A stretch of 64,000 nt of DNA from Actinomadura sp. NBRC 104412 (lineage in GTDB: Bacteria; Actinomycetota; Actinomycetes; Streptosporangiales; Streptosporangiaceae). The stretch lies in assembly GCF_030269515.1 (NCBI RefSeq), contig NZ_BSTM01000024.1, positions 62,001 through 126,000 of the forward strand. Direction: 5' to 3'. Shown here piece by piece: positions 2,899 through 56,151 of the stretch. The translations under genes were made by a program, and so were the position numbers. The notes under the pieces were generated by a model. The model did no database searches. It was not told where the DNA came from and saw nothing but the letters and a program-made list of their open reading frames with translations. Numbering within the stretch: the stretch's first letter is position 1; every line of letters starts with the position of its first letter.

Positions 2899-2950
2899 TT
2901 GCGCTCTGCTCCCTGGGGGGTTGGTCTGCGGGATCGGTGCAGGCGGCCGT

Positions 2951-20541: not shown

Positions 20542-21513
20542 TCAGTCCGGCCGCCGGTCCTCCGGCCAGTCCGGAATCGTCGCGTCCGGAGCCTTGGCCA
20601 GTTCCTCCGGCGGCTCCTCCAGCAGGACCAGCGGGTCGAGCAACGCCTGCATCGTCGTGAGCATGGTCTCCATCAGGTGCATCCGGACCAGCCGCGCCGG
20701 TCGCTCCGCGTCGTCGTTGAAGTGCTGGTGCCAGAGGAAGTGGTCGACGACCAGCAGGTCACCCGCCTCCCAGGGCTCCTCCCGGCCTCCGGTGGGCTGC
20801 TCGCCGAAGTAACTGTGCCCGCGGCCCTCGACGACATAGAGCAGCGCCTCGCCCGGATGGCGGTGCTTGGCCTGGAACAGCCCCGGCCCGAGCTGGACCA
20901 TGACCATCGTCAGGCCCGAGGTGCGCGAGCCGATCGAGGGGTCCACCAGGAACTTGCTGCGCGTCCCCTTGGGATTGGGACGCAGCTCGATCTCGTCGTA
21001 GTCGGTGTGCAGCCGCCCCCGGCGCCCGCCGGTGGCCTCGGTGGGATCCGGCCGATCCGCGGGCAGCGTCCAGGCCGCGCCCAGCGACTCGAAGACCGGC
21101 CGCGAGCTGCACGACAGCAGCACCGCTCCGCGCGGGTCGTCGGTGCCGTGCCGGAACGCCGCCCAATGCGGCACGTGGACGGCGTCCCACGGCCGCCAGG
21201 ACACCCGGCGGCCGTCGATCTCGGTCCACCCGGTGCCCGACACCACCAGGTAGATGGTGTCCCAGGACTCCCGGCGGGCGGTGCTCACGGCACCCGGTTC
21301 CAGCCGGTACTCCGTGCAGTCGACCAGCCTGGTCGGCCGTCCGGCCGCGGCGCCGATGTACTGACCGGCGGTCACGCCCGGTCCGGCCTGGCGGTGCTCG
21401 ACATCACCGGAGCGGATCACGGTCTGCCGGTGCGCCCGCCAGTCGTCGGCCATGGCCTTGCGCCGGTCCCGTTGCACCTCGTAGTGCGAACGGGTCTCGG
21501 TTCGCGTCCTCAT
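20542..21513 (-). CDS. Bicupin domain protein, copy 1
   Basis: This 323-residue double-cupin protein is a paralogue of 40256-41323. The C-terminal cupin has the metal ligand set (KHRHPGEALLYVVEG, then HFLWHQHFND). The N-terminal cupin lacks the HxH seen in its paralogue: STARRESWDTIYLVV replaces THRHSWDAMVFVV, so one metal site appears lost. Double-cupin proteins of this size include gentisate-type ring-cleaving dioxygenases as well as non-enzymatic proteins, and no assignment is safe. It lies 13 bp after a TctC gene on the minus strand. Confidence 0.8.
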   Translation of the reverse strand: MRTRTETRSHYEVQRDRRKAMADDWRAHRQTVIRSGDVEHRQAGPGVTAGQYIGAAAGRPTRLVDCTEYRLEPGAVSTARRESWDTIYLVVSGTGWTEIDGRRVSWRPWDAVHVPHWAAFRHGTDDPRGAVLLSCSSRPVFESLGAAWTLPADRPDPTEATGGRRGRLHTDYDEIELRPNPKGTRSKFLVDPSIGSRTSGLTMVMVQLGPGLFQAKHRHPGEALLYVVEGRGHSYFGEQPTGGREEPWEAGDLLVVDHFLWHQHFNDDAERPARLVRMHLMETMLTTMQALLDPLVLLEEPPEELAKAPDATIPDWPEDRRPD

Positions 21514-30620: not shown

Positions 30621-31730
30621 CTACTTGGCCGATCGCGCACTGCGCAGGATGTCCTCGTAGCGCGCTTCCCACTGCTCGCCTTCGGCGACCAGCTTGCCGA
30701 TGTCGACCGTCACGGTCTCGATCCCGTCGAGCGCGCCCTTCTGCAGGTCCGCCCGCGCCGGGATGCGGTGTTCGCCGATCATCAGCTGCTGGCCGTCGCT
30801 GAGCACCCATTCCATGAAGAGCAGCGCGCTGGCGGGATTCTTGGCGTTGCGCAGCAGGGCCACCCCGTTGGGACGGATGACCAGCGGCTCCACCACCGGC
30901 GTACGGGACAGCGGCGCCCCGGTGTCGATCAACTGGTCGACGAGGTGGTTGTAGACGCTCGTCGAGAGGCCGTGCTCGCCCGAGCCGAGGAACTGGGCGT
31001 GTGTGGTGTTGCCCTCGACGGCGGTCGAGTTGGCGGCGATCCTGCGGAACAGGTCATCGACCTGTGCCTGGGTCTTGCCCTTGCCGATGAAGTACTGGGA
31101 CAACGCCATGTACCACTCGAACGCCCGGCTCTCCATGATCGTGACTCCGGCGAACCGCTTGTCCGCCAGATCCTCGAAGGACTTCGGCGGCTGCTTCACC
31201 ACCCTGGTGTTCCAGGACACCGTGAACATGTTCAGCCGGCTTCCGACCCAGCCCTTCTGCTTGGCGGCGGGGACCAGCCCGTCGTCGGCCGGGCCTTCGT
31301 ACGGACGCAGAAGGCCCTCGGTGTTCGCGGTGGCCAGTTCCTCCGCGTTGCTGTCATAGAGGTCGGCCGACGACCGCCTGGCCTTGGTCTCCTGCAGCAG
31401 GCGTTGCAGGACCTGGTTCGCCTTGGCCCGGTAGACGCTCACCTGGATGCCGTACTTCTCGGTGAACTTCTTGGCCTGGTCCGCGAGGTCGGTGTTGGAG
31501 GTGTAGACGCTGAGCTTGTCCTCCTTACGGGCCAGTTCCAGCAGCTTCTGGGTGCGCGCGTTCCCCTCCAGGCCCTTCAGCCGGCCGAGCACCGCGGCGT
31601 ACGGGTCCCGGTCCCCGCCGGACCCCGCTCCCTTCTGCGTCGGGGAGCCACCACATGCCGCCAGGCAGAGGGCCACCACGAGGGCGACGCCGGTTCGTGC
31701 GGCCGGGGCCTTCGCTGCGAACTGCACCAT
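30621..31730 (-). CDS. ABC transporter solute-binding lipoprotein (Fe3+-type family), copy 3
   Basis: This is a 369-residue lipoprotein with a lipobox at LAAC26 and the shared opening KGLEGNARTQKLLELARKED followed by YTSNTDLADQAKKF. It diverges from copy 4 across a 161-bp intergenic region with a 14-bp palindrome. It is transcribed alone on the minus strand, since the next gene downstream is convergent. The permease and ATPase must be supplied in trans. CAGGAG lies ten bases before the ATG. Confidence 0.9.
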   Translation of the reverse strand: MVQFAAKAPAARTGVALVVALCLAACGGSPTQKGAGSGGDRDPYAAVLGRLKGLEGNARTQKLLELARKEDKLSVYTSNTDLADQAKKFTEKYGIQVSVYRAKANQVLQRLLQETKARRSSADLYDSNAEELATANTEGLLRPYEGPADDGLVPAAKQKGWVGSRLNMFTVSWNTRVVKQPPKSFEDLADKRFAGVTIMESRAFEWYMALSQYFIGKGKTQAQVDDLFRRIAANSTAVEGNTTHAQFLGSGEHGLSTSVYNHLVDQLIDTGAPLSRTPVVEPLVIRPNGVALLRNAKNPASALLFMEWVLSDGQQLMIGEHRIPARADLQKGALDGIETVTVDIGKLVAEGEQWEARYEDILRSARSAK

Positions 31731-34915: not shown

Positions 34916-34966
34916 GTGCCCGCTTCGGCGCGAACGGCCGGAGTCCGCACGCCGCGATCTCGATGA
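34916..34966 (+). CDS. Possible 16-residue leader peptide coupled to the aldehyde dehydrogenase
   Basis: GTG at 34916 follows AAAGGGGGAA at good spacing, which is the only strong ribosome-binding site ahead of the aldehyde dehydrogenase. The frame reads 16 residues, rich in Arg and Ala, and ends with a TGA that overlaps the dehydrogenase ATG (ATGA). The simplest reading is a short leader that brings ribosomes to a start with no site of its own. No attenuator structure was recognised. Whether the peptide itself matters is unknown. Confidence 0.4.
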   Translation: MPASARTAGVRTPRSR

Positions 34967-36423
34967 CCGCCGCCACCGAACGCCCGACCCGACCACGGCA
35001 GATGTACATCGGCGGACAGTGGTGCGATGCCGCCGACGGCTCGACGATGGTCAGCCTGGACCCGGCCACGGAGGAGCCCATCGGCACGGTGCCCATCGCC
35101 GCTCAGGCCGACGTGGACCGGGCGGTGGCCGCCGCGGCCGCGGCCGCACCGGAGTGGGGCGACCGTCCCTGGCCGGAACGCGCCGCGGCCCTGCGCGCCC
35201 TCGCCGAGAGGATCGACGCCGCGGCCGAGGAGCTCGCCGCTCTGGACACGGCCGACGCGGGGCTGCCGATCAACGGCAGCCGCGGCGACGTACGCTCCGC
35301 GGCGGACGAGATCCGGTACTTCGCGGGACTCGGTGGCGAGGCCAAAGGGGCGACGTTGCCGTCCACACCGGCGCAGCTCGCGATGAGCCAGCGCGAACCG
35401 TACGGCGTCGTCGGCCGGATCGTGCCGTTCAACCATCCGTTCAAGTTCGCGGCCGGGAAGTGCGCGGCGCCTCTGATGGCCGGCAACGCGGTGGTCCTCA
35501 AACCGGCCGAGCACACCTCGCTGTCCGCCCTCCGGTTCGCCGAGCTGGCCGCCGGGCTGCTCCCGCCCGGAGTGCTCAACGTGGTCACGGGTCCTGGCCG
35601 GGTCGGCGCGGCACTCGTCGAGCACCCGCGGGTCGAGCGGATCGCCTTCACCGGCAGCGTGCCGACCGGCCGGGCCGTCCTGCGCGGCGCGGCCGACCAC
35701 ATCAAGCACGTCACACTGGAGCTCGGCGGCAAGAACCCGATGATCGTCTTTCCGGACGCGGATCCGCGGCGGGCCGCCGCGGGCGCGGTCGCCGGGATGA
35801 ACCTGCGCCGCTCGATGGGCCAGTCCTGCCAGTCCAACTCCCGCATCCTGGTGCACCGGTCCATCCGGGAGACGTTCCTCGCCGAGCTGGTCGAGCAGGT
35901 GAACGCGCTGACGGTCGGGAACCCGCACGACGAGGCCACCGACCTCGGACCGCTGGCGTTCCGCGAGCACTACGAGCGGGTGCTGCGCTACGTCGCGCTC
36001 GGTGTCGAGCAGGGGGCCCGGCTGGTCGCCGGAGGCCGGCGGCCGCTCGGGCTGGACCGCGGCCACTACCTCCAGCCGACGGTGTTCGCCGACGTCACGC
36101 AGGACATGACGATCGCCACCGACGAGATCTTCGGCCCGGTGATGGCCGTTCTGGACTGGCAGGACGAGGACGAGATGGTCGAGCTGGCGAACGCCGTCGA
36201 CTACGGGCTGACCGCCAACATCTGGACCGACGACCTGCATCGGGCGCACCGGACCGCGCGGCGCCTCCAGGCCGGCACCGTCTGGGTCAACGGCACGGGC
36301 CGCAAGCCGCTCGGCACCCCGTTCGGTGGCTACAAGCACAGCGGGCTCGGGACCGAGAGCTCGCTCGACGAGCTGCTCAGCTACACCCGGCTGAAAAGCG
36401 TCGTGGTCAACCTGCGTCAGTGA
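34963..36423 (+). CDS. Aldehyde dehydrogenase family protein
   Basis: This 486-residue NAD(P)-dependent aldehyde dehydrogenase has the expected catalytic residues: N157 in PFNHPF, E253 in LELGGKN, and the nucleophile C289 in MGQSCQSNS. Length is normal. It would oxidise the aldehyde released by the upstream TPP enzyme. The ATG has no ribosome-binding site of its own and overlaps the stop of a short GTG frame with a good one. It ends six bases before the convergent GntR gene. Confidence 0.93.
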   Translation: MTAATERPTRPRQMYIGGQWCDAADGSTMVSLDPATEEPIGTVPIAAQADVDRAVAAAAAAAPEWGDRPWPERAAALRALAERIDAAAEELAALDTADAGLPINGSRGDVRSAADEIRYFAGLGGEAKGATLPSTPAQLAMSQREPYGVVGRIVPFNHPFKFAAGKCAAPLMAGNAVVLKPAEHTSLSALRFAELAAGLLPPGVLNVVTGPGRVGAALVEHPRVERIAFTGSVPTGRAVLRGAADHIKHVTLELGGKNPMIVFPDADPRRAAAGAVAGMNLRRSMGQSCQSNSRILVHRSIRETFLAELVEQVNALTVGNPHDEATDLGPLAFREHYERVLRYVALGVEQGARLVAGGRRPLGLDRGHYLQPTVFADVTQDMTIATDEIFGPVMAVLDWQDEDEMVELANAVDYGLTANIWTDDLHRAHRTARRLQAGTVWVNGTGRKPLGTPFGGYKHSGLGTESSLDELLSYTRLKSVVVNLRQ

Positions 36424-37988: not shown

Positions 37989-38996
37989 ATGGCGAAGAGC
38001 GGTCGGACCTTTCTGCGCGGCATCACCTCGGAGAAGTACGGACTGTCGGAGTTCCGCGAGGCGCAGCTCAAGGCTCCCCGGGTCCGCAACGACGAGGTGG
38101 TCGTCGACGACGCCAAGGTCGGCCACTCCGGCGACTCGAAGGACTCCCGCACCTGGTGGCGCGTCGGCCCGGGTGACGACCCCTTCCTGACACAGACGCT
38201 GCAGGTGCACTTCGTCGAGATCCCGCCCGGCAAGTCCAACCACGGGCACGGCCACCAGAACGAGGCCGCCTTCTACATCCTGCGCGGCAAGGGCTACGAG
38301 ATCCACGACGGGCAGCGCTACGACTGGGAGAAGGACGACCTGGTCATCGTGCACACCGACTCGGTGCACCGGCACTTCAACGACGGCGACGAGACCGCCA
38401 CGGCGCTGGTCTTCAAGGCCAAGAGCATGTGGATGTACTTCGGCCTCATCCAGCAGGGCCGCAGCGGCCCGGTCAAGGACGAGCACCGGTTCGGGCCGAG
38501 GGAGGACTGGTCGCGGATCTGGACGCCCGGCGTGATGGACCGCAAGAAGGTCGTCAAGCCCGCCGACACCACCTGGGAGACCACCCAGGACGGCATCATC
38601 CGCAGCATCCTGTCACCGGCCCGTGACGACGTCCGGTGCTTCAGCGTCGACATCTACCAGCAGCGCATCCCTGCGGGCAGCCGGTCCGGCAGGGCCTGGC
38701 ACATGGCCGACGAGGTGCTCTACGTGCAGTCCGGCTCGGGCACCAGCTACCACTGGGAGGTCGAGGCGGAGATCGCCGACAGGTACTACGCGCGGATCGC
38801 CAAGGAGCCGACCGTGCACAGGTTCACCGCGGGCGACACGATCTACGTCCCGCAGAACACCATCCACCAGCACGTCGCCGACGACGGAAGCGAGGTCATG
38901 CTGCTCAGCGCCCAGAACCGGCTCTTCCGTTACCTCGGCTACGACACCGTCGCCTACCTGGAGAACGCGCCCGAGTTCGACGCGGCGCGGTCCTGA
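37989..38996 (+). CDS. Bicupin domain protein, copy 2
   Basis: This 335-residue protein has two cupin domains. The first has a full ligand set (NHGHGHQNEAAFYILRG, then HTDSVHRHF). The second (AWHMADEVLYVQSG, then VPQNTIHQHV) has a partial set. It is more distant from the other bicupins of the window than they are from each other. The fold fits a mononuclear metal dioxygenase, isomerase or sensor; no assignment is safe. It is divergent from the GntR pair with operator half-sites between them and is followed by an MFS gene after 34 bp. Confidence 0.82.
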   Translation: MAKSGRTFLRGITSEKYGLSEFREAQLKAPRVRNDEVVVDDAKVGHSGDSKDSRTWWRVGPGDDPFLTQTLQVHFVEIPPGKSNHGHGHQNEAAFYILRGKGYEIHDGQRYDWEKDDLVIVHTDSVHRHFNDGDETATALVFKAKSMWMYFGLIQQGRSGPVKDEHRFGPREDWSRIWTPGVMDRKKVVKPADTTWETTQDGIIRSILSPARDDVRCFSVDIYQQRIPAGSRSGRAWHMADEVLYVQSGSGTSYHWEVEAEIADRYYARIAKEPTVHRFTAGDTIYVPQNTIHQHVADDGSEVMLLSAQNRLFRYLGYDTVAYLENAPEFDAARS

Positions 38997-39030: not shown

Positions 39031-40188
39031 GTGACCCCGGGGCCTGACGACCGGCGACTGCCCCGGGACTCCGTGCCCACCTGGCTGTGCACGTCGGGTT
39101 TCTCCCTGTCACTGGGGATGGCCTCGGTCGCGATGCCGCTGCTCGCCCTGCGGGCCGGGTACAGCGGCACCGAGATCGGTGTCTACACGGCGCTGTCCGC
39201 GGTGGCGCAACTGTGCACGCGCCTGGTGATGGGCCCGGCGATGCGCCTGCTCCCGGACCGGGACTTCGTCGTCCTCGCGGCCCTGCTGCTGGCCGTCTCC
39301 AGCGGGCTGGCCGCCGTGTCGGCACTGCCGATCTGGTTCGGCCTCGCCCAGTTGCTGCAGGGCATCGCCCGCGCGTTCTTCTGGACCGGCAGCCAGACCC
39401 ACGCGGTCCGGGTGTCGGACTCGTCGGTCCGCGGCCTCACCGCGCTCAACCTCTCCTCGACGGCGGGCCTGCTCGGCGGGCCGGTGCTGGCCGGGTTCCT
39501 CACCGAGGCGTCGCCCGGCCGCGCCCTGCTGTGCGCGGCGCTGATCGCCACGGTGGTCATGTGGCCCGCCCGCCGGCTGACCAGGCTTCCGGTCTTCGAA
39601 CAACTGGAGGACCGGCGGCCGGGCCTGATCTGGACCCGGCCCGGTGTCGACGCCGGCTGCTGGGCGGGCGTCACCGCGGGCGCCTGGCGAGGACTGCTGA
39701 GCTCCTACATCCCGGTGGTGCTCACCCATGCCGGGCAGGGTCCCTCGATGGTCGGCGGGCTGGTGTCGGTGGCCAACGCGGCGTCCCTCGCCGGCACCGG
39801 GCTGGCCGGGAGGGTGCCCGAGCGGTGGATGTCCCGGTCGTTCGGGCTCGGGGTGCTGGCCACCGGTCTGAGCATCGCGGCGTTCGCACCCCTCGCGGCG
39901 ACCGCCCTCGCCGCCGGCGCGGCGCTCGCCGTCTCCGGGATCGGCGCGGGGGTGCTCCAGACCGTCGGGCCGGCGGTGGCGTCCGACGCCGTCCACCCGG
40001 AGGAACGGGGCGACGCGATCGCGGCGGCCGGGACGTTCCGCGCGGCCTCGCTGTTCCTGGTCCCGCTCGGCGTGGCGGGACTGCTCGCCGTCGTGCCGCT
40101 CGTGCCGGCCCTGATGCTGACCGGGGTCCTGGCGGCCACACCGGCCGGCTACACGCCGAGGCTGCGCCGCCACCTGGGCGGTCGGTAG
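39031..40188 (+). CDS. MFS transporter
   Basis: This 385-residue transporter has about twelve membrane segments, with the TM2-3 loop GPAMRLLPDRDFV. It starts with GTG after GGCGGGGCG. It lies in the same transcription unit as bicupin copy 2 and may move the substrate or product of that protein. It ends 33 bp before the next operator. Substrate specificity is not visible. Confidence 0.85.
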   Translation: MTPGPDDRRLPRDSVPTWLCTSGFSLSLGMASVAMPLLALRAGYSGTEIGVYTALSAVAQLCTRLVMGPAMRLLPDRDFVVLAALLLAVSSGLAAVSALPIWFGLAQLLQGIARAFFWTGSQTHAVRVSDSSVRGLTALNLSSTAGLLGGPVLAGFLTEASPGRALLCAALIATVVMWPARRLTRLPVFEQLEDRRPGLIWTRPGVDAGCWAGVTAGAWRGLLSSYIPVVLTHAGQGPSMVGGLVSVANAASLAGTGLAGRVPERWMSRSFGLGVLATGLSIAAFAPLAATALAAGAALAVSGIGAGVLQTVGPAVASDAVHPEERGDAIAAAGTFRAASLFLVPLGVAGLLAVVPLVPALMLTGVLAATPAGYTPRLRRHLGGR

Positions 40189-40236: not shown

Positions 40237-40255
40237 ATTCCTTTAGGAGGTGCTG

Positions 40256-41323
40256 GTGGCCAGCCGGACAACGACCAAGGTGACCCACTACCACGTGCAG
40301 AAGAAACGGCGCGCGGAGTTCCTGGAGAGCTGGCGGGCGAATCGGCGTACGGTCGTCACGGCCGAGGACGTCACGCTCCACCCCAGCGAGCGCGGCCACC
40401 GGATCGGGGTGTACGTCGGCGTCGACGGCGACCGGCCGACCCGGACGATGGACGCCATGGTGCACGAGTTCGATCCGGGCACCACGACCACGATCCACCG
40501 GCACAGCTGGGACGCGATGGTGTTCGTCGTCGGCGGCTGGGGCTGGACCGAGATCGACGGCGAGCGGATCGAGTGGGGCCCGGGTGACTCGCTGCACCTG
40601 CCGGCCTGGTCCTGGCACCGCTCCGGCAACGAGGGCGAGACCACCGCGAGGTACCTGACCTTCTCCAGCGAGCCGATGCTGGACACGATGGGCATGTCGG
40701 TACTTGAGGACGCCGGCCACACCGACGTCGCCGAGCTGCCCGGGCGTCCGCCGTACACCGAGACGATGGCCGGCGACGACCCGTACGCCCGCCGGGTCCG
40801 CCGGCTCGCCCGCGAGCAGAACGACCGCCGGTCCGGCCGGCTGCACACCAGTTGGGACGACCTCGAACTGCTGCCCACACCGCGGGGCACGCGGACGACG
40901 TTCCTGCTCGACCGGGCGATCGGCTACCGGGCCTCGGGGATCACGATGGCGATGTTCGAGATCGCCCCGGGCCGTGCGCAGTCCATGCACCGCCACCCGG
41001 GTGAGGCATGGCTGTACGTCGTCGAGGGCAACGGGCACAGCTACCTCGGCACCGAGCCCGAGGGCGGCGAGAGGCATCCGTGGAAGAAGGGCGACCTGAT
41101 CATCGTCGACCACTTCCTGTGGCACCAGCACCTGAACGACAATCCCGACCGGACGGCCAAGGTGGTCCGGATCCACATGTTCGACAGCCTGCTGGAGACG
41201 ATGCGGGTGCTCACCGACCCGCTGGTGCTGTTCGAGGAGCCGCCGGACCACATCCGCGACGCCCAGGCCGGCGACCCGACGACGGTCGACTGGCCGGAGG
41301 TCGTCCGGCCGACCTGGCCATGA
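40256..41323 (+). CDS. Bicupin domain protein, copy 3
   Basis: This 355-residue double-cupin protein is a paralogue of 20542-21513, here with both metal sites apparently intact: THRHSWDAMVFVV with HLPAWSWHRSG, and MHRHPGEAWLYVVEG with HFLWHQHLND. The GTG at 40256 is chosen because AGGAGG ends five bases before it; the GTG at 40250 overlaps that site. Its stop overlaps the start of the AAA+ ATPase by 4 bp, so the two are made together and probably act together. A metalloenzyme served by an ATP-dependent activator is the leading hypothesis. Confidence 0.82.
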   Translation: MASRTTTKVTHYHVQKKRRAEFLESWRANRRTVVTAEDVTLHPSERGHRIGVYVGVDGDRPTRTMDAMVHEFDPGTTTTIHRHSWDAMVFVVGGWGWTEIDGERIEWGPGDSLHLPAWSWHRSGNEGETTARYLTFSSEPMLDTMGMSVLEDAGHTDVAELPGRPPYTETMAGDDPYARRVRRLAREQNDRRSGRLHTSWDDLELLPTPRGTRTTFLLDRAIGYRASGITMAMFEIAPGRAQSMHRHPGEAWLYVVEGNGHSYLGTEPEGGERHPWKKGDLIIVDHFLWHQHLNDNPDRTAKVVRIHMFDSLLETMRVLTDPLVLFEEPPDHIRDAQAGDPTTVDWPEVVRPTWP

Positions 41324-42219
41324 GCGCGGTGCGCCTGCCCCCGGGGATCACGGGTGTCCACGCGCTGCCGGCCGACCACCATGACGGGCCGTGGGACTCG
41401 ATCATCACCGCCCCCGCGCTGAAGGAACGGCTGTTGGGCCAGGCGATCCTGCTGTTGCGCCACGGCCGGCGGCTGCAACGGCTGTCCGGCGCGCCGCACG
41501 GCCTGGTGGTGCTCGCCGGGCCGCCGGGCACCGGGAAGACCACGCTGTGCCAGGGGCTCGCCCAGGTGGTGGCGCTGGCCCTGGCCAGGCGTGGCGGGAC
41601 GACGTTCGTCGAGGTCGACCCGCACGCGTTCCCCAGCGAGATGCTCGGGGAGAGCCAGCGGGCCGTGCGGGAGCTGTTCACCGAGACGCTGCCCGAGCTG
41701 GCCCAGCGGCGGCCGCACACGATCGTGCTGATCGATGAGATCGAGTCCCTCGCGGTACGCCGCAGCGCGGCGGCGTTCGAGACCAACCCCGTCGATGTGC
41801 ACCGCGCGACCGACGCCGTGCTGTCCGGCCTCGACGAGCTGCGCGCCTCGTCACCCCACCTGTTGATGCTGGCCACCACCAACTTCATGCCCGCACTGGA
41901 CGAGGCGTTCCTGTCCCGTGCCGACCTGGTGCTGGAGACGGCGCTGCCCGACGAAGAGGTGATCACCGAGATCATCCGCGGATCGCTGACCGAACTCGCC
42001 GTCCAGTGGCCCGGACTGCGGCCACTGGCCGAGGACACCGAGCTGCATCGCAAGCTCGCCGCCCGGTGCGCCGGATTCGACGGGCGCCGGGTGCGCAAGG
42101 CGATCCTGTCGGCCCTGGCGCGGCGCCCGGACCTCGCCGAGGACCCCGAGCGGCTCACCCCCGACGATCTGTCGGCCGCGGTCGGCGCCGCGGCCGATGG
42201 CCCGCTCGCCGGCTCCTGA
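41320..42219 (+). CDS. AAA+ ATPase of the TRIP13/Pch2 family, short form
   Basis: This 299-residue AAA+ protein has Walker A GPPGTGKT at 67-74, Walker B VLIDE at 136-140, sensor-1 N188 and arginine-finger region SRAD near 200. The stretches VLIDEIESLA, LSGLDEL and TTNFMPALDEAFLSRAD align with the TRIP13/Pch2 signature, not with the MoxR or ClpX type, and the C-terminal FDGRRVRKAIL matches its lid. Only about 60 residues precede Walker A, so the usual N-terminal substrate-binding domain is missing. TRIP13 proteins remodel HORMA proteins, and bacterial versions occur in CBASS, but no HORMA or nucleotidyltransferase gene is near. It overlaps bicupin copy 3 by 4 bp. Confidence 0.85.
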   Translation: MSAVRLPPGITGVHALPADHHDGPWDSIITAPALKERLLGQAILLLRHGRRLQRLSGAPHGLVVLAGPPGTGKTTLCQGLAQVVALALARRGGTTFVEVDPHAFPSEMLGESQRAVRELFTETLPELAQRRPHTIVLIDEIESLAVRRSAAAFETNPVDVHRATDAVLSGLDELRASSPHLLMLATTNFMPALDEAFLSRADLVLETALPDEEVITEIIRGSLTELAVQWPGLRPLAEDTELHRKLAARCAGFDGRRVRKAILSALARRPDLAEDPERLTPDDLSAAVGAAADGPLAGS

Positions 42220-43416: not shown

Positions 43417-44712
43417 ATGTCAGGCGCCACGAAGAAGGGCAGCGGCGGCACTCTGATCGTGGGCGGCAGCCAGGCCGGGCTTCAGCTGGCCGTGTCGCTG
43501 CGGCGGCTCGGGGACACCGCGCCGATCGTCCTCGTCGGGGAGGAACCGCACCCGCCCTATCAGCGGCCGCCCTTGTCCAAGGAGTTCCTCGCCGGAGAGG
43601 CGGGGCTCGACTCGCTTCCCCTCCGCGCGCCCGCGTTCTACACCGACTCCGGGATCGACCTGGTGTGCGGGGAGCGGGTGAGCCGGCTGACGCTGTCGCC
43701 CACCGGCCCGCCGGGCTCGGGGGTCGCGGAGACCGCCACCGGACGCGAACTGCCCTTCGACCGGCTGGCGCTGACCGTGGGCGCGAGCGTCCGGCGGCTG
43801 CCCGTCCCCGGCGCCGGCCTCGACGGGATCTGCTTCCTGCGCGACCGCGACGACGCGGTGAACCTCCAGGCCCGGCTCCGCTCCGCCGCGCGGACCGTCG
43901 TCATCGGCGGCGGGTTCATCGGCCTGGAGGTGGCCGCGGCGGCCCGCCGTCTCGGCGGGTCGGTCACGGTGATCGAGGCCGCGGACCGGCTGATGGCACG
44001 GGCCGTGGGGCCCGTGGTCTCGGAGTTCTACCTGCGGGCGCACCGGCGCCGCGGCATCGACGTGCGGCTGTCGTCGCAGGTGTCGGCGTTCCTTGGCATA
44101 GGGGGCAGGGTGACCGCGGTCGCGCTGGCCGACGGGACGGAGCTGCCCGCCGACCTCGTGCTGATCGCGGTCGGCGTCGTCCCGCGCACCGAGCTCGCCG
44201 AACAGCTGGGGCTGGCGTGCGACGGGGGCATCGTCGTGGACGCGCGGGCCCGCACCAGCGAGCCCTCGGTCGTCGCCGCGGGCGACTGCACCGCGCAGCC
44301 GCACCCGGTGACCGGGCAAGGGCGGGTGCGGCTGGAGTCGGTCCAGAACGCCGTGGCCCAGGCGCAGGTGGCGGCGGCGACCCTGCTGGGCCGGGCGGAG
44401 GGGACCAAGCCGGTGCCCTGGTTCTGGTCCTACCAGGGTGACCTCAGGCTGCAGATCGCCGGCCTGTCGACCGGCTACGACGAGCAGGTGGTGCGGGGCG
44501 AGCCGGACAGCGAACGGTTCTCCGTCCTGTACTACCGCCAGAACCGCCTGCTGGCCGTGGACGCGGTCAACCGGCCCGCCGACTACATGACCGTGCGCAA
44601 GGCCCTCGGTGAGGGCGCGACCATCCCTCCCGGCCGCGCCGCCGACCCCGAGGCGCCGCTGAAGTCGGTCATCGAGACCTCACCTTGTGCCAGGGAGAGA
44701 GGTCTGGTCTAA
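43417..44712 (+). CDS. FAD-dependent ferredoxin reductase
   Basis: This 431-residue oxidoreductase has two dinucleotide-binding motifs: GGSQAGLQLA near 16-25 for FAD and VIGGGFIGLE near 165 for NAD(P)H, with the C-terminal FAD motif VVAAGDC. It corresponds to the reductase of three-component Rieske oxygenases (BphA4, RhuA type). It passes electrons from NADH to the ferredoxin encoded next. The stop TAA shares a base with an ATG (TAATG) of a possible longer form of the ferredoxin. Confidence 0.92.
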   Translation: MSGATKKGSGGTLIVGGSQAGLQLAVSLRRLGDTAPIVLVGEEPHPPYQRPPLSKEFLAGEAGLDSLPLRAPAFYTDSGIDLVCGERVSRLTLSPTGPPGSGVAETATGRELPFDRLALTVGASVRRLPVPGAGLDGICFLRDRDDAVNLQARLRSAARTVVIGGGFIGLEVAAAARRLGGSVTVIEAADRLMARAVGPVVSEFYLRAHRRRGIDVRLSSQVSAFLGIGGRVTAVALADGTELPADLVLIAVGVVPRTELAEQLGLACDGGIVVDARARTSEPSVVAAGDCTAQPHPVTGQGRVRLESVQNAVAQAQVAAATLLGRAEGTKPVPWFWSYQGDLRLQIAGLSTGYDEQVVRGEPDSERFSVLYYRQNRLLAVDAVNRPADYMTVRKALGEGATIPPGRAADPEAPLKSVIETSPCARERGLV

Positions 44713-44725
44713 TGGACATACCAAA
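44711..44725. promoter_or_regulatory. Possible internal GntR/FadR-type operator before the ferredoxin gene
   Basis: AATGGA-CAT-ACCAAA resembles the operator at 53449 (TATGGT-CAT-ACCAAT) and lies at the end of the reductase gene, 59 bp before the ferredoxin TTG. It may mark an internal promoter for the ferredoxin-Rieske segment. Confidence 0.5.
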
Positions 44726-44783
44726 CGTCCGAACCAGGGAACGTCATACGGCCGTAGCGCCACCGCGAGAGGACATCGGCGAC

Positions 44784-45107
44784 TTGTCCAAGGTGACCTA
44801 CATCGACAGCACCGGCCGCGCGCACACCGTCGACGCGACGGTCGGCGACACGGTCATGGCCACCGCCGTCAAGAACGGCATCCCGGGGATCGTCGCCGAG
44901 TGCGGCGGGAACCGCTCGTGCGCGACCTGCCACGTGTGGGTCGCCGAACGGTTCGCCCCGCTCGTGGGCGGCCCAGGCGACATGGAGGAGGACCTGCTCG
45001 ACATGGGCGTCTCGGAGCGGCGCCCCACCAGCCGGCTCTCCTGTCAGATCCGCATCACCGAGGATCTCGACGGCCTGACGGTGGAGATCCCAGCCGACCA
45101 GCCATGA
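44784..45107 (+). CDS. [2Fe-2S] ferredoxin, putidaredoxin type
   Basis: This small electron carrier of 107 residues has the vertebrate/bacterial-type cluster ligands C40, C46, C49 and C87 (CGGNRSCATC, then RLSC). TTG at 44784 is preferred because the protein then starts like other family members (SKVTYID) and GAGAGGA precedes it. A start at ATG 44712, with GAGAGAGG upstream and a TAATG overlap, would add a 24-residue unrelated extension. It delivers electrons to the Rieske oxygenase downstream. Confidence 0.88.
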   Translation: MSKVTYIDSTGRAHTVDATVGDTVMATAVKNGIPGIVAECGGNRSCATCHVWVAERFAPLVGGPGDMEEDLLDMGVSERRPTSRLSCQIRITEDLDGLTVEIPADQP

Positions 45108-45171: not shown

Positions 45172-46458
45172 GTGCTGAGGCGGGACATCAACGACCTCTT
45201 GACCCAGACCGGCCCCGGGACGCCGATGGGCGAGCTGTTCCGGCAGTACTGGATCCCGGCACTGCTCGCCGAGGAGCTTCCAGAGAACGACTGCCCGCCG
45301 GTGCGGGTGAAGCTGCTGTCGGAGCGGATGATCGCCTTCCGCGACAGCGAGGGGCGGTACGGCCTGATCGACGAGTTCTGCGCCCACCGCGGCGCGTCCC
45401 TGTGGTTCGGCCGCAACGAGGAGTCGGGCCTTCGCTGCCCCTACCACGGCTGGAAGTACGACGTCACCGGCCAGTGCGTGGAGGTGCCGTCCGAGGCCGA
45501 CAACAGCAGCTTCTGCGAGAACGTGAAGCTGACCTCCTACCCCCTGGTCAAGGTCGGCGATGTGCTGTGGACGCACATGGGCGACCCGGCCCGGCGGCCG
45601 GGCCTGCCGGAGTTCGAGTTCCTGCACGTCCCCCCGGAGCAGACCTACACCTCCAAGCGGTGGCAGCAGTGCAACTGGCTGCAGGCGTTCGAGGGCGGCA
45701 TCGACTCCAGCCACGTCACGTTCCTGCACTCCGGCGGCCTGAAGAACGATCCGCTGTTCAAGGGCGCCAAGGGCAACGAGTACAACCTGAACGACACCAA
45801 GCCGTTCTTCGAGGTCGCCGACAGCGAGGGCGGCCTGTTCGTCGGGGCCCGCCGCAACGCCGAGGAGGGCAAGTACTACTGGCGCATCACGCCCTGGGTG
45901 ATGCCGGCGTTCACGATGGTGCCGCCCCGCGGCGACCACCCGGTGCACGGCCACTTCTGGGTGCCGATCGACGACGAGAACTGCTGGACCTACTCCTTCG
46001 ACTACCACCCCGTCCGCGCGCTGACCGACGCCGAGCGGCAGGCGATGATCGACGGGCACGGCGTGCACAGCAAGAACATCCCCGGGACCTACCGTCCCGT
46101 CGCCAACATGGACAACGACTACCTGATGGACCGCGAGGCGCAGAAGCGCGGCGAGACCTACTCCGGCGTGGCCGGCATCGCACTGCAGGACGCCTCGGTG
46201 CAGGAGAGCATGGGCCCGATCGTGGACCGCACCAAGGAGCGGCTCGTGCCGGCCGACAGCGGGATCATCAAGGCCCGGCAGAAGCTGCGCAAGGCCGCGA
46301 TCGCGCTGCGGGACGAAGGCGTGACGCCACCCGGCGTGGATCCGGCACACCACCGGGTGCGCTCGGCGGCGGTCGTGCTTCCGCAGGCCGAGTCGTTCCT
46401 GGACGCCTGCCGCGACGCGGTCAAGGCGACGCCCGGCACCCCCCAGGCGTCGGTCTGA
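45172..46458 (+). CDS. Rieske [2Fe-2S] aromatic-ring oxygenase, catalytic subunit
   Basis: This 428-residue oxygenase has the Rieske ligands C70, H72, C89 and H92 (FCAHRG, then CPYHGW) and the mononuclear iron ligands D178, H181 and H186 in GGIDSSHVTFLH. This matches the phthalate 4,5-dioxygenase/vanillate demethylase class, where a single alpha subunit works with a reductase. Here the reductase and ferredoxin are separate genes just upstream. The substrate is probably a phenolic or aromatic acid; hydroxylation, demethylation and dioxygenation are all possible. It starts with GTG after AAGAAGGGAA. Confidence 0.92.
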   Translation: MLRRDINDLLTQTGPGTPMGELFRQYWIPALLAEELPENDCPPVRVKLLSERMIAFRDSEGRYGLIDEFCAHRGASLWFGRNEESGLRCPYHGWKYDVTGQCVEVPSEADNSSFCENVKLTSYPLVKVGDVLWTHMGDPARRPGLPEFEFLHVPPEQTYTSKRWQQCNWLQAFEGGIDSSHVTFLHSGGLKNDPLFKGAKGNEYNLNDTKPFFEVADSEGGLFVGARRNAEEGKYYWRITPWVMPAFTMVPPRGDHPVHGHFWVPIDDENCWTYSFDYHPVRALTDAERQAMIDGHGVHSKNIPGTYRPVANMDNDYLMDREAQKRGETYSGVAGIALQDASVQESMGPIVDRTKERLVPADSGIIKARQKLRKAAIALRDEGVTPPGVDPAHHRVRSAAVVLPQAESFLDACRDAVKATPGTPQASV

Positions 46459-46989: not shown

Positions 46990-47835
46990 ATGCCGGGCGG
47001 AACCGCGGGAAAGGTGACGCCGCGCGCGCTCCAGGAGATGAAGGACGGCGGCCGGAAGATCGTCGGCGTGGTGGCCTGGGACTACCAGATCGCCCGGATC
47101 GCCGACCGGGCGGGCGTGGACCTGGTCTCGGTCGGCGACACCGTCGGCGTGAACCTGTGGGGCGACCCGAACCCGTTCGAGGTCACCATGGACCAGATGA
47201 TCCTGGTGACACGCGCGGTGCGGCGCGGGGTGAGCCGGGCGCTGCTCAGCGCGGACTTCCCCTTCGGCCCTCTGCAGGAGGGCACGGACAGCGCCGTGCG
47301 GGCGGCCATCCGGTTCGTCAAGGAGGCCGGGGCCGACATGGTGAAGCTCGACGCGGCCCCGGACTTCCTCGACTCCGTCAGGGCGATCACCCGGGCGGGG
47401 ATCCCGGTGTTCGCGCAGTTCGGGATCACGCCGCAGACGGCCCTGCGGTACGGGGTCGAGTACAGCTCCGTCCCGTCCGGGGCGGACCAGGTGCCGGTGG
47501 AGATGAAGGACGCGCTGATCGCCGAGGCCAAGCGGCTGGAGGAGGCGGGCGCCGCGCTGCTCAACTTCACCAACTCCGGGCCGGTGGTGGGGGCGGCGGT
47601 GGCGAAGTCCGTGTCCATCCCCGTCGTCGGTGGCTTCGGCGGCGGCCCGTGGCTGGACGGCCGGATGCGGATGGCGCACGCCGCCATCGGCTACGCCGCG
47701 TCCGCCATCGACGATCCTCCCGACACCTACGCCAACGTCGCGCGGATCACACTGGACGCGCTGAGCTCGTACGCCGAGGACGTGCGGGCCGCCCGCCAGA
47801 TCGCGGGCGGCATCCCCGTCCCGCCCGGAAGCTGA
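46990..47835 (+). CDS. 3-methyl-2-oxobutanoate hydroxymethyltransferase (PanB)-like protein
   Basis: This is a 281-residue TIM-barrel protein of the PanB/phosphoenolpyruvate mutase superfamily. The metal-site region VSVGDTVGVNLWG replaces the usual VGDSLGM of PanB, and DMVKLDAAP is in the place of the KLEGG motif, so the active site differs from biosynthetic PanB. In a catabolic operon an aldol or retro-aldol cleavage of a hydroxylated 2-oxo acid is more likely than pantothenate synthesis; that is inference. GAGAGGAGG precedes the ATG. Confidence 0.82.
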   Translation: MPGGTAGKVTPRALQEMKDGGRKIVGVVAWDYQIARIADRAGVDLVSVGDTVGVNLWGDPNPFEVTMDQMILVTRAVRRGVSRALLSADFPFGPLQEGTDSAVRAAIRFVKEAGADMVKLDAAPDFLDSVRAITRAGIPVFAQFGITPQTALRYGVEYSSVPSGADQVPVEMKDALIAEAKRLEEAGAALLNFTNSGPVVGAAVAKSVSIPVVGGFGGGPWLDGRMRMAHAAIGYAASAIDDPPDTYANVARITLDALSSYAEDVRAARQIAGGIPVPPGS

Positions 47836-53428: not shown

Positions 53429-53463
53429 CAGCGCTTGGATAGCGGCATTATGGTCATACCAAT
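53425..53463 (+). promoter_or_regulatory. Promoter with overlapping GntR/FadR-type operator, bicupin/eutA unit
   Basis: TTGACA (53425-53430), an 18-bp spacer and TATGGT (53449-53454) form a promoter 56 bp before the bicupin start. The operator TATGGT-CAT-ACCAAT (53449-53463) begins with the -10 hexamer itself. The same arrangement occurs at 29695-29723. The -35 overlaps the end of the phosphoglycerate mutase gene. Confidence 0.75.
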
Positions 53464-53485
53464 AGTTGGATCAAAAGGGGCGTAT

Positions 53486-54604
53486 ATGGCCGACGGAAAC
53501 GCGCTCGTCAAGGACGAGCTGGCGGCGAAGTTCAGAACCGAGAAGGACTCCCCCTACACCCGCTGGGTGGCGGCGGAGGGGCTGGACATCATCGCCGCCC
53601 ACTACGTCCCGGACCTGCGCACGGTCGAGCTCAAGCCATGGGAGCGGCGCGGCGGGCGCGGCGTGTTCATCAACCACGAGGCGACCCGTACCTCCAACGA
53701 CTGCTACGTCTGCGAGATCCCGGCGGGCGGGAGCCTGGCGCCCCAGCGGCAGCTCTTCGAGGAGATGATCCTGATCCTGGAGGGTCAGGGCTCCACCCGC
53801 GTGTGGAACGACGCCGGTGCCGAGGTCTCCTTCGAATGGCAGGCCGGCTCGCTGTTCGCCATCCCGCTCAACACCCACCACCAGCACTTCAACGGCTCGG
53901 GCCTGAAGGCCGCCCGGTTCGTCGCCTCGACCAACCTGCCGCCCGTACTCAACCTCTACGACGACGTCGACTTCGTGTTCGGCACAGCCCGGGACTTCCC
54001 CGGCCGGTTCGACGGGGAGCCCGACTACTTCTCACCCAAGGGCGAGCAGAAGGGGCTGCTGCTGGACACCAACTTCGTCGCGGACGCGGCCAACCTGGCG
54101 CTGGTGGAGGCGAAGGAACGCGGCGCGGGCGGCGGGCACATCCGCTTCTCGATGGCCAAGGGATCGATGAACAGCCACATCTCCCAGTTCCCCGTGGCCA
54201 CCTACAAGAAGGGCCACCGGCACGGCCCGGGAGCCCACGTCATCATCCTGACGGGCACGGGCTACAGCCTGATGTGGCCCGAGGGCGAGGAACCGCGGCG
54301 CTACGAATGGGGCCCCGGTTCGCTGATCGTCCCGCCGAACATGTGGTTCCACCAGCACTTCAACACCGGTCCCGAGCCCGCCCGCTACCTGGCGTTCAAG
54401 CACGAGGGGGTCGCGATCCGCAACGCCCAGGGCGTGCCGAAGGCGTGGATCAGCAGGCGCATCGGCGGCGACCAGATCGACTACGCCGACGAGTCGCCGT
54501 TCGTGCGGGACACCTTCCGCAAGGCACTCGCCGAGCGCGGGCTCGAGCCGCGGATGGACGAGGCGTACGCCGCCGAGCTCGAAACGCTGCCGCCCAAGCC
54601 GTGA
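53486..54604 (+). CDS. Bicupin protein (type annotated elsewhere as ethanolamine ammonia-lyase-activating protein)
   Basis: This 372-residue protein has two cupin-like halves. The N-terminal half (LFEEMILILEGQG, then PLNTHHQHF) lacks HxH in its first motif. The C-terminal half has a full set (KGHRHGPGAHVIILTG, then NMWFHQHFN). ATG at 53486 follows AAAAGGGG. As far as I recall, proteins of this length and sequence are named as activating proteins for ethanolamine ammonia-lyase in databases, though no mechanism is known to me. The stop overlaps the start of a EutA-type gene by 4 bp, which supports a shared task. Confidence 0.75.
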   Translation: MADGNALVKDELAAKFRTEKDSPYTRWVAAEGLDIIAAHYVPDLRTVELKPWERRGGRGVFINHEATRTSNDCYVCEIPAGGSLAPQRQLFEEMILILEGQGSTRVWNDAGAEVSFEWQAGSLFAIPLNTHHQHFNGSGLKAARFVASTNLPPVLNLYDDVDFVFGTARDFPGRFDGEPDYFSPKGEQKGLLLDTNFVADAANLALVEAKERGAGGGHIRFSMAKGSMNSHISQFPVATYKKGHRHGPGAHVIILTGTGYSLMWPEGEEPRRYEWGPGSLIVPPNMWFHQHFNTGPEPARYLAFKHEGVAIRNAQGVPKAWISRRIGGDQIDYADESPFVRDTFRKALAERGLEPRMDEAYAAELETLPPKP

Positions 54605-56151
54605 CCAAGCCCCCTCCGCACGACCCCGTCGTCCACTCGGCGTACGTCCCGGACCACGATCACGAGCACGACGACGATGCGCTGCACCCGCTCGAGGACA
54701 ACCCGATCTGGCGGCAGGACAACGTCACGCTGCACAGCGTCGGCATCGACATCGGATCGTCGGGCACGCAGGTGCTGTTCTCACGCCTGCGGCTGCGGCG
54801 GATCGGCGAGAGCCTGACCACCCGCTACATCGTCGTCCGCCGGGAGACGCTCTACCGCTCGCCGGTCGCGCTCACCCCGTACGCGAGCGCCGAGCGCATC
54901 GACGCGGAGGAGCTGGGGGCGATCATCGACAGGGCGTACGGCGCCGCGGACGTACGCCCGTCCGACATCGACACCGGGGTGGTGATCCTCACCGGGGAGG
55001 CGCTGCGCCGCCGCAACGCCGAGGCCATCGCGACCATCCTCGCCGAGCGCGGGGGCGAGCTGGTCACCGCGACCGCGGGCCACAACATGGAGGCCATGCT
55101 CGCCGCCTACGGCTCGGGGGCGGCGCGGGTCTCACACGACACCGGGCGGCGCCTCCTGAACATCGACATCGGTGGCGGGACGACCAAGCTGGCGGTGCTG
55201 GAGCACGGCAGGCCCGTGACGACCTCCGCGCTGGCCGTCGGCGGGCGGCTGCTGGTCGTGGACGAGCGGGACCGCGTCGTCCGTCTCGACCCGGCCGGGC
55301 GCCGGCACGCGGCCCGTGCCGGGTATGCGTGGGAGCCCGGTGACCTCGCCCGTCCCGAGGACCTGGAGACGGTGACCGAAACGATGGCGGACGCGCTCGT
55401 CGCGGCCGTCACCGCTCGCCCGCTCCCGGACGACGTGGCCGGGCTGTACCTCACCGAGCCGCTGGAGGAGACGGGGCCGATCGAGGGCGTCATGTTCTCC
55501 GGCGGTGTCGCCGAGTACGTCTACGGCAGGGAGGACCGGGGGTTCGGCGATCTGGGCCGGGGGCTCGGGCGGGCGCTGCGCCGGCGGATCGACTCCGGCG
55601 CCCTGCCCTTCCCGCTGCTGCCGCCGGGCGAGTGCATCCGCGCCACCGCGCTGGGCGCGTCCGAGTACAGCGTTCAGCTCAGCGGGAACACGGGCTGCGT
55701 CACCGCCCCCGACGCGCTCCTGCCACGGCGCAACCTCCAGGTCGTGCGGCCGGACCACCGGCCGGGCGAGACGGTCGACCCGGTGGCGGTGGCGGACGCG
55801 ATCCGCCGCCGCCTCGTCGCCCTGGACGCCGACCTGTCCGGCGCGGACATCGTCCTGGCCATGTCCTGGGACGGGCCGCCGAGCTACGACCGGCTGCTGC
55901 CCTTCGCGACCGGCATCCGGGACGGCCTGGCGGACCGGATCGCGCAAGGCAGGCCGGTCTACGTCATGCTCGACGGGGATGTCGCCATGACGCTCGGCCG
56001 GCTGCTCCGCGAGGAACTGGCCGTCGGCACCGAGCTCCTGGTCATCGACGGCCTCAGCCTGCGGGACTTCGACTACATCGACATCGGCCGCGTCCGGCAC
56101 CCGTCCGGCACGGTACCGGTCACGATCAAGTCGCTGGTCTTCGGCACGTGA
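54601..56151 (+). CDS. eutA: EutA-type ethanolamine ammonia-lyase reactivase
   Basis: This 516-residue protein is a member of the EutA family, ASKHA-type ATPases that replace damaged cobalamin in ethanolamine ammonia-lyase. Seen: phosphate motifs GIDIGSSGTQ at 48-57 and NIDIGGGTTK at 187-196, and VMFSGGVAEYVYG in the C-terminal half. It has a His/Asp-rich N-terminal extension (DHDHEHDDD, 18-26) that could bind metal. The GTG at 54601 overlaps the bicupin stop by 4 bp. No EutB or EutC gene is in the window, so it may act on another metalloprotein, possibly the bicupin. Confidence 0.88.
   Translation: MTKPPPHDPVVHSAYVPDHDHEHDDDALHPLEDNPIWRQDNVTLHSVGIDIGSSGTQVLFSRLRLRRIGESLTTRYIVVRRETLYRSPVALTPYASAERIDAEELGAIIDRAYGAADVRPSDIDTGVVILTGEALRRRNAEAIATILAERGGELVTATAGHNMEAMLAAYGSGAARVSHDTGRRLLNIDIGGGTTKLAVLEHGRPVTTSALAVGGRLLVVDERDRVVRLDPAGRRHAARAGYAWEPGDLARPEDLETVTETMADALVAAVTARPLPDDVAGLYLTEPLEETGPIEGVMFSGGVAEYVYGREDRGFGDLGRGLGRALRRRIDSGALPFPLLPPGECIRATALGASEYSVQLSGNTGCVTAPDALLPRRNLQVVRPDHRPGETVDPVAVADAIRRRLVALDADLSGADIVLAMSWDGPPSYDRLLPFATGIRDGLADRIAQGRPVYVMLDGDVAMTLGRLLREELAVGTELLVIDGLSLRDFDYIDIGRVRHPSGTVPVTIKSLVFGT

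Follow-up and report, generated by a model that had tools for sequence, protein, structure and literature searches.

The stretch analyzed here is a 64,000-nucleotide (nt) piece of the Actinomadura sp. NBRC 104412 genome (contig NZ_BSTM01000024.1, positions 62,001 to 126,000), referred to in full as the window, and it comes from a host genome of 7.85 Mb that is 99% complete. In catabolic surroundings, as judged by Pfam, it holds a bicupin gene that runs into a gene for an AAA+ ATPase of the TRIP13/Pch2 clade. A first-pass annotation made from the sequence had singled out this pair, the features of which are as follows.

40245–40250, + strand: AGGAGG, read by eye as the likely ribosome-binding site of the bicupin
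40256–41323, + strand: bicupin of 355 amino acids, related at a distance to gentisate/salicylate 1,2-dioxygenases (two stretches match Pfam Cupin_2, 3.5e-27; H81/H83/H121 and H245/H247/H290)
41320–41323, + strand: ATGA overlap of 4 nt between the bicupin stop codon and the ATPase start codon
41320–42219, + strand: AAA+ ATPase of the TRIP13/Pch2 clade, 299 amino acids (PADLOC profile PDLC00915, 318 bits, 1.3e-95; VIA-align; tree)

The overlap reported in the first-pass annotation is present, with the ATG of the ATPase at 41320–41322 lying over the TGA of the bicupin at 41321–41323, and the two genes are likely to be translationally coupled. An alternative bicupin start at GTG 40250 is possible; the AGGAGG fits the start at 40256.

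Placement of the ATPase in the TRIP13/Pch2 clade had been proposed from the signatures IDEIESLA, SRAD and GRRVRK, all of which are found in the sequence, and it is upheld by both profile and structural comparison of the predicted protein. The PADLOC TRIP13 profile spans residues 4–292 of 299, with the best non-TRIP13 model reaching 55 bits. A structural model predicted from 39 sequences (mean predicted local distance difference test score, pLDDT, 89.4; L093 and L096 were left out of the folding alignment) returned only TRIP13/PCH-2 structures in Foldseek rows 1–17, including PCH-2, human TRIP13 and Escherichia coli Trip13. In VIA-align, the closest solved structure was the E. coli Trip13 6p8v_A of a cyclic oligonucleotide-based anti-phage signaling system (CBASS), with a Z of 25.6 and a root-mean-square deviation of 2.9 over 270 residues, followed by 6f0x (Z 24.3) and 4xgu (Z 22.9), the last of which is tied with other AAA+ families because those score from 22.5 down. 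Conservation reaches 90% or more in cupin-linked and CBASS sets alike at G67, P69–T74, D139/E140, N188, R200, R256 and R259; P69–T74 is Walker A, and the residues together take in Walker B, sensor 1, the arginine finger and sensor 2. The first-pass annotation was also right that the N-terminal domain that holds HORMA adaptors is absent, but not in reading this as telling. CBASS TRIP13s (n=14) lack the domain too, at 291–304 amino acids against a median of 298 for cupin-linked TRIP13s when start codons are chosen by us, and the solved E. coli chain has 299 amino acids and aligns with residues 5–295 of the model. As CBASS TRIP13s are equally short, the argument from the missing domain fails, and the short N-terminus was rejected as a special mark of the window ATPase.

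The bicupin identification likewise stood, with Cupin_2 matched in two stretches and two conserved three-histidine sites that are predicted to bind metal. The histidines H81, H83, H121, H245, H247 and H290 are kept in all 73 ATPase-adjacent bicupins and in 12 of 12 lone homologues (L110, L061 and L022 were excluded from this comparison). An N-terminal motif, THY-VQK-RR (H11, Y12, Q15, R18, R19), is retained in at least 97% of the ATPase-adjacent homologues; in the predicted model (pLDDT 86.9) the first 10 residues are poorly defined (mean pLDDT 58) and a helix follows at 11–28. The best solved relatives by sequence are gentisate and salicylate 1,2-dioxygenases, which are also the top Foldseek matches (template modeling score, TM, of roughly 0.5); oxalate decarboxylases and MncA follow closely. 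No NCBIfam equivalog cut-off for a named dioxygenase was reached, the gap being wide at 63.2 of 442 bits for gentisate 1,2-dioxygenase and 66.9 of 650 bits for 5-aminosalicylate dioxygenase, and the bicupin was classed as no more than a distant relative of these enzymes.

Adjacency of the two genes is conserved well beyond this genome, in at least three phyla. Of the two outcomes that the first-pass annotation had named as refuting its reading, an ATPase of another clade and adjacency not kept elsewhere, neither occurred. An alignment of four bicupins, all taken from loci where TRIP13 was already known, was used to scan 84,980 species genomes; the best 80 of the 154 relatives found were compared, and the ATPase adjoins the bicupin in 66 of them. 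The two genes share a strand in 65 cases, of which 61 are at most 25 nt apart and 32 overlap (gaps and lengths depend on our choice of start codons), and lie on opposite strands in one (L101). The relatives include records of Streptomyces, Pseudonocardia, Mycobacterium, Actinomadura, Kibdelosporangium and Micromonospora, as well as metagenome-assembled genomes (MAGs) of Acidobacteria, Betaproteobacteria and Acidiferrobacteraceae, and the pairing extends over Actinomycetota, Acidobacteriota and Pseudomonadota. Three of the 14 relatives without an adjoining ATPase (L085, L103, L108) are on contigs that stop at or within 85 nt past the bicupin match. When 12 genomes were searched for TRIP13, 11 with ATPase-less loci plus one more (G181) whose bicupin likewise has no ATPase neighbor, 8 were found to encode a TRIP13 that is 50–63% identical to that of the window. 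Six of these 8 adjoin another bicupin of 72–74% identity, one stands beside the end of a bicupin where its contig stops (L126, which may be the L103 gene broken across two contigs), and one, in G573, adjoins ABC (ATP-binding cassette) transporter genes and no bicupin (L133).

Among seven companion genes tested together in 83 bicupin loci, the ATPase is the most constant, occurring in 68. The other catabolic neighbors vary from locus to locus: two transporter genes reach 38 and 37 loci, 26 have a permease, 22 a thiamine pyrophosphate (TPP) enzyme, 19 EutA and 9 another cupin. When the ATPase was the starting point of the search, in which the top candidates of a first look were scored, two types of surroundings emerged. 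At the level of the order, 8 of 150 genomes were found, four cupin-linked (G000, G119, G002, G004) and four HORMA-linked (G041, G050, G086, G133); at the level of the phylum, 3 of 396, with G000 and G332 cupin-linked and G519 carrying HORMA and CD-NTase; and in the phylum of G564, 5 of 297, with G564 (the center of the search) and G563 bicupin-linked and three carrying HORMA and CD-NTase. Together, therefore, 15 of 15 distinct TRIP13 genomes have a cupin or HORMA gene beside or near the ATPase at those thresholds. In G002, which belongs to the same order as the window, TRIP13 is preceded by a single-domain cupin (L026:4388-5866), and a bicupin is about 3 kb away. A scan of plasmid records with the bicupin gave a single place covering 80% of the query, at 24.6% identity; a viral-contig scan yielded only 3 weak loci, and phage records only 7 weak matches.

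In a maximum-likelihood tree of 94 ATPase rows (L061, L110 and L120 were removed as repeats of L022 and L101), 75 cupin-linked ATPases form one clade with support 96/85. All 77 cupin-linked rows, including the divergent L026 and L027, fall on one side of a branch with weak support (30/96); the basal order of the TRIP13 branches is unresolved in this tree, which has several long branches. One MAG is the source of both L130 and L074, which are identical, so that at least one repeat is contained in the 73 adjacent bicupins and in the 77 ATPases. All 14 CBASS-labeled rows, L114 and L118 among them, were confirmed to have HORMA and CD-NTase genes nearby. The separation of the branches is also visible in a stretch of the ATPase that we take to be pore loop 1.

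41629–41661, + strand: stretch FPSEMLGESQR of the ATPase, residues 104–114, typical of cupin-linked TRIP13s in the alignment

P105 and L109 are each present in 75 of 75 cupin-linked rows, and in 0 of 14 and 1 of 14 CBASS rows, respectively, the CBASS rows reading S-[A/S/G]-x-[H/M/L]-G-[K/Q] at this loop (L025 has R for S). The divergent cupin-linked rows keep both residues. F153 likewise marks every one of the 75 cupin-linked rows, where the 14 CBASS rows all have L or M.

The statement in the first-pass annotation that no HORMA or CD-NTase gene is near can be extended to the whole host genome, in which neither HORMA domain 2 (bacHORMA_2, PF18173) nor a SMODS-type CD-NTase (PF18144) has a match. 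HORMA domain 2 was found in 0 of 26 cupin-linked genomes (bacHORMA_1 and HORMA3-type models were not searched, and L058 stands outside this count), and in 4 of 4 HORMA-linked control genomes; the SMODS-type CD-NTase was found in 1 of 22 cupin-linked genomes and 3 of 3 controls. The window ATPase is flanked by the bicupin and by an opposite-strand gene with no Pfam match. The absence of HORMA is a matter of a different partner, not of lost membership in the TRIP13 clade. Membership in a type III CBASS was rejected, there being no SMODS-type CD-NTase in the operon and no PF18173 match beside TRIP13, and so was descent as a CBASS remnant, as the genome lacks HORMA domain 2 and SMODS CD-NTase and the ATPases lie on their own branch.

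In plasmid records, eleven of the 13 places covering at least 80% of the ATPase query were viewed, and a CBASS cyclase follows the ATPase match in 8 annotated bacterial places and in 2 more by tblastn; one place is haloarchaeal, with unnamed neighbors. Two further loci were noted. In Enterobacter hormaechei (L117:3797-8422), an AAA+ ATPase 31.5% identical to that of the window, over a match shorter than the 80% cover, occurs with a small unknown gene and an S8 peptidase, with an insertion sequence element between. At L028:6924-10389, a GTPase-like gene and a bacHORMA_2 gene flank a divergent TRIP13, and no CD-NTase related to two query sequences was found within 18 kb.

Several observations in the window and its relatives point to metal handling. 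Metal chaperones such as HypB and CooJ carry histidine-rich tails, and ATPases of the betaproteobacterial/acidobacterial branch carry C-terminal tails such as HDHDHGHALHDHAHPHPPTHTHQH. At least five tail histidines occur in 11 of 77 cupin-linked ATPases, all of them in one clade of 13, and in 0 of 14 CBASS ATPases. Five bicupin loci (L080, L085, L095, L099, L103), out of 14 that are of the betaproteobacterial/acidobacterial type, carry a NicO-type nickel/cobalt-transporter gene 1.0–1.4 kb upstream on the opposite strand; it is assigned by Pfam NicO in four and by motif and clustering in L080. In the window itself, a second ATPase, of the ASKHA type and with a histidine-rich N-terminus, is coupled to another cupin.

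53435–54604, + strand: another cupin-family protein, 389 amino acids, coupled to the EutA-like gene (Pfam Cupin_2, 7.7e-09)
54601–56151, + strand: EutA-like ASKHA ATPase with the N-terminus DHDHEHDDD (Pfam EutA, 6e-113, 378.7 bits, cut-off 27)

These two genes overlap by 4 nt (GTGA). Relatives of the cupin adjoin a EutA-like gene in 8 of 9 loci, and in the ninth (L048) the beginning of one is seen where the locus stops. A histidine-rich N-terminus recurs in 7 of 12 other EutA-like genes (L060, L063, L071, L038, L084, L095, L103). The best NCBIfam EutA equivalog score of the window protein, 292 of 598 bits, missed the cut-off, and EutB (PF06751) was found in 0 of 22 genomes including the host, 20 of which have a EutA-like gene and many of which are unfinished drafts, with E. 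coli positive as a control. Service to ethanolamine ammonia-lyase (EutBC) is therefore unlikely, and it was rejected as the role of this gene. The coupling of cupin and EutA-like ATPase may merit its own study.

The remaining genes around the pair include a second bicupin upstream, an electron-transfer and Rieske oxygenase set downstream, and, further off, a paralogue of the ATPase-linked bicupin.

20542–21513, − strand: paralogue of the ATPase-linked bicupin by profile match, with R/E/F in place of H81/H83/H121 at the first site and the second site intact
34963–36423, + strand: aldehyde dehydrogenase-like gene in the catabolic context, labeled from its translation and not by profile (59% relative in the cluster of G119, L022)
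37989–38996, + strand: bicupin 1, a second cupin protein upstream of the pair, 335 amino acids (Pfam Cupin_2, 2.1e-20; 67% relative in the G119 cluster)
39031–40188, + strand: major facilitator superfamily transporter in the catabolic context (Pfam MFS_1, 1.5e-24)
43417–44712, + strand: ferredoxin reductase (Pfam Pyr_redox_2, 1.9e-62, and Reductase_C)
44685–45107, + strand: 2Fe-2S ferredoxin, candidate start (Pfam Fer2, 4e-07)
45172–46458, + strand: Rieske oxygenase with a LigXa_C domain (Pfam LigXa_C, 1.7e-30; Rieske, 8.9e-19)
46990–47835, + strand: PanB-like enzyme of the ketopantoate hydroxymethyltransferase family (Pfam, 4.7e-62)

Two GntR regulators were assigned by reading translations, and the outlying members of the cluster are a TPP enzyme, an amidohydrolase, hydrolases of the isochorismatase fold and solute-binding proteins. 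The intervals 1774–4732, 13207–14316, 18622–19770 and 30621–31730 contain ABC ATPase and permease genes along with several genes, separate from one another, for solute-binding proteins; those tested show a distant likeness to 2-aminoethylphosphonate transporters, and one solute-binding gene has relatives in 38 of the 83 bicupin loci. Rfam and tRNA scans of the window gave no matches.

Beyond what was observed, namely the clade, the coupling and conservation of the gene pair, the branch-specific pore loop, the conserved catalytic and cupin residues and the lack of the HORMA domain searched for, the best-supported guess as to function is that the ATPase remodels or activates the bicupin, as the first-pass annotation had suggested. 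We give a probability of about one half to the fuller proposal that this TRIP13-clade ATPase is a dedicated ATP-driven remodeler, a maturase or reactivase, of a client cupin metalloenzyme, in which we infer both the interaction and the metal. The starting point is an AAA+ ATPase on its own TRIP13 branch, encoded beside one bicupin family, often with overlap, in genomes where HORMA domain 2 was not found. The changed pore loop of the ATPase ring would grip an end of the bicupin, most simply its conserved N-terminal tail, and ATP would be used to open the bicupin partly, in the way TRIP13 opens HORMA proteins. Such opening may permit loading of the cupin metal centers, or the exchange of an inactive metal or of an inhibitor bound there, and the ATPase would then act as maturase or reactivase of a dioxygenase of the ring-cleaving type. 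A more specific version, in which the ring opens the bicupin to nickel, cobalt or iron from the histidine-rich tails and the EutA-derived ASKHA reactivase serves the other cupin in a two-motor maintenance scheme, is tentative and in our view somewhat doubtful.

A number of points weigh against the proposed remodeler. We know of no gentisate-type dioxygenase that needs an ATPase, and 4 of the 12 genomes searched (G181, G574, G575, G576) gave a bicupin and no TRIP13, so that either some members work alone or the assemblies miss the ATPase. The N-terminal motif is retained in G181, a genome in which the TRIP13 search gave nothing at E≤1e-15, and is thus not tied to the ATPase alone; it may serve the ATPase as a handle. 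The metal evidence is also uneven. The histidine-rich tail is confined to one clade and missing from the window ATPase, so in this organism it is relatives and the EutA-like partner that supply the metal link. The ATPase is visible in only three of the NicO loci (L080, L095, L099), the other two contigs ending first, and that of L080 has no histidine tail while those of L095 and L099 do; no NicO-type motif was noted beside the window pair, and the EutA-like genes of L048, L050, L052, L066 and L083 have few or no N-terminal histidines.

Of the alternatives, the one that survives best, though unlikely, is that the bicupin is an adaptor that replaces HORMA or p31comet and presents a third protein, such as another cupin or the Rieske system, to the ATPase. 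It would agree with the action of TRIP13s elsewhere on or through HORMA proteins, as described in PMC10419184, with the single-domain cupin in the adjacent place in G002, and with the degenerate metal site of the window paralogue. However, every one of the 73 ATPase-adjacent bicupins compared has both metal sites, which fits an enzyme better than an adaptor; in addition, none of the other six companion genes is as constant in the loci. Rather unlikely as well is a role in switching the bicupin off, by dismantling oligomers or unfolding spent enzyme for degradation. Coupled genes would give matched protein amounts, and the disassembly of HORMA–CD-NTase complexes by TRIP13 in CBASS, as given in the same review, offers a precedent, but histidine-rich tails and NicO would be unexpected for pure disassembly, and no protease was recognized among the 32 commonest neighbor families, a weak argument as only some of these are annotated.

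Improbable, in turn, is mere operon packaging, with the ATPase serving another client from within a catabolic operon. Co-regulation does cluster catabolic genes, and the G573 ATPase sits beside transporter genes and not a bicupin, yet the pair stays together in at least three phyla while the rest of the cluster varies, and the pore loop is specific to the branch. A cryptic anti-phage system, with a cupin as effector or sensor of TRIP13, is very improbable, for although the best profile match is a PADLOC model built for defense systems, the surroundings are catabolic, HORMA domain 2 and SMODS CD-NTase are absent from the genome, and no PADLOC model matches the bicupin.

No description of a bicupin–TRIP13 pair was found in the portion of the open-licence PubMed Central literature that was covered, subscription papers lying outside the search; within that same portion, TRIP13 and cupin are mentioned together only in a kinetochore context. 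A salicylate-induced cupin and PanB-like protein of Rhodococcus TFB, as presented in PMC3937715, are other proteins and were dropped. The evidence suggests that an ATPase whose family is familiar from cell division and from defense against phages has been given a new job in keeping a metal-binding enzyme working. If this is true, the TRIP13 motor can take a client unrelated to HORMA, the specificity of its pore loop becomes testable by comparing two natural TRIP13 branches, and AAA+ and ASKHA reactivases are added to cupin dioxygenases, for which we know of no helper of either type. Profile-based defense annotation can label these catabolic ATPase genes as TRIP13 parts.

Among known systems, comparable in the proposed manner of working are the small AAA+ proteins that are co-encoded with one enzyme, such as the Rubisco activase CbbX and the MoxR/NorQ class. 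These belong to other AAA+ clades, and the CbbX profile, with its cut-off of 459 bits, gives the window ATPase only 18.5. Gentisate and salicylate 1,2-dioxygenases (3bu7, 2phd, 4fag) share the bicupin fold and the three-histidine pattern, but the window bicupin is only 15–20% identical to them and is coupled to an ATPase. The EutA-like protein matches the family of the ethanolamine ammonia-lyase reactivase EutA, from which it differs in its coupling to a cupin, its histidine-rich N-terminus and the absence of EutB from the 22 genomes. Eukaryotic Pch2/TRIP13 (4xgu, 6f0x, 5wc2), the remodeler of HORMA proteins in meiosis and the spindle checkpoint, has the fold and motifs of the window ATPase in common; the eukaryotic-type N-terminal domain is lacking in the latter, as alignments start near eukaryotic residue 107–127, and the window genome has no HORMA domain 2. 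TRIP13 acts with HORMA in CBASS and conflict systems according to PMC10419184 and PMC7159879, and the former, a review, has active HORMA–CD-NTase complexes being disassembled by it in CBASS. The CBASS TRIP13 (Cap6; E. coli MS115-1 Trip13, 6p8v) is of the same clade and length as the window ATPase, which is 41–48% identical to the plasmid examples viewed, and shares its ATPase motifs and its lack of the eukaryotic N-terminal domain. What sets the cupin-linked ATPase apart is a bicupin partner in place of HORMA and CD-NTase, a different pore loop 1, a catabolic setting and, in one branch, a histidine-rich tail.

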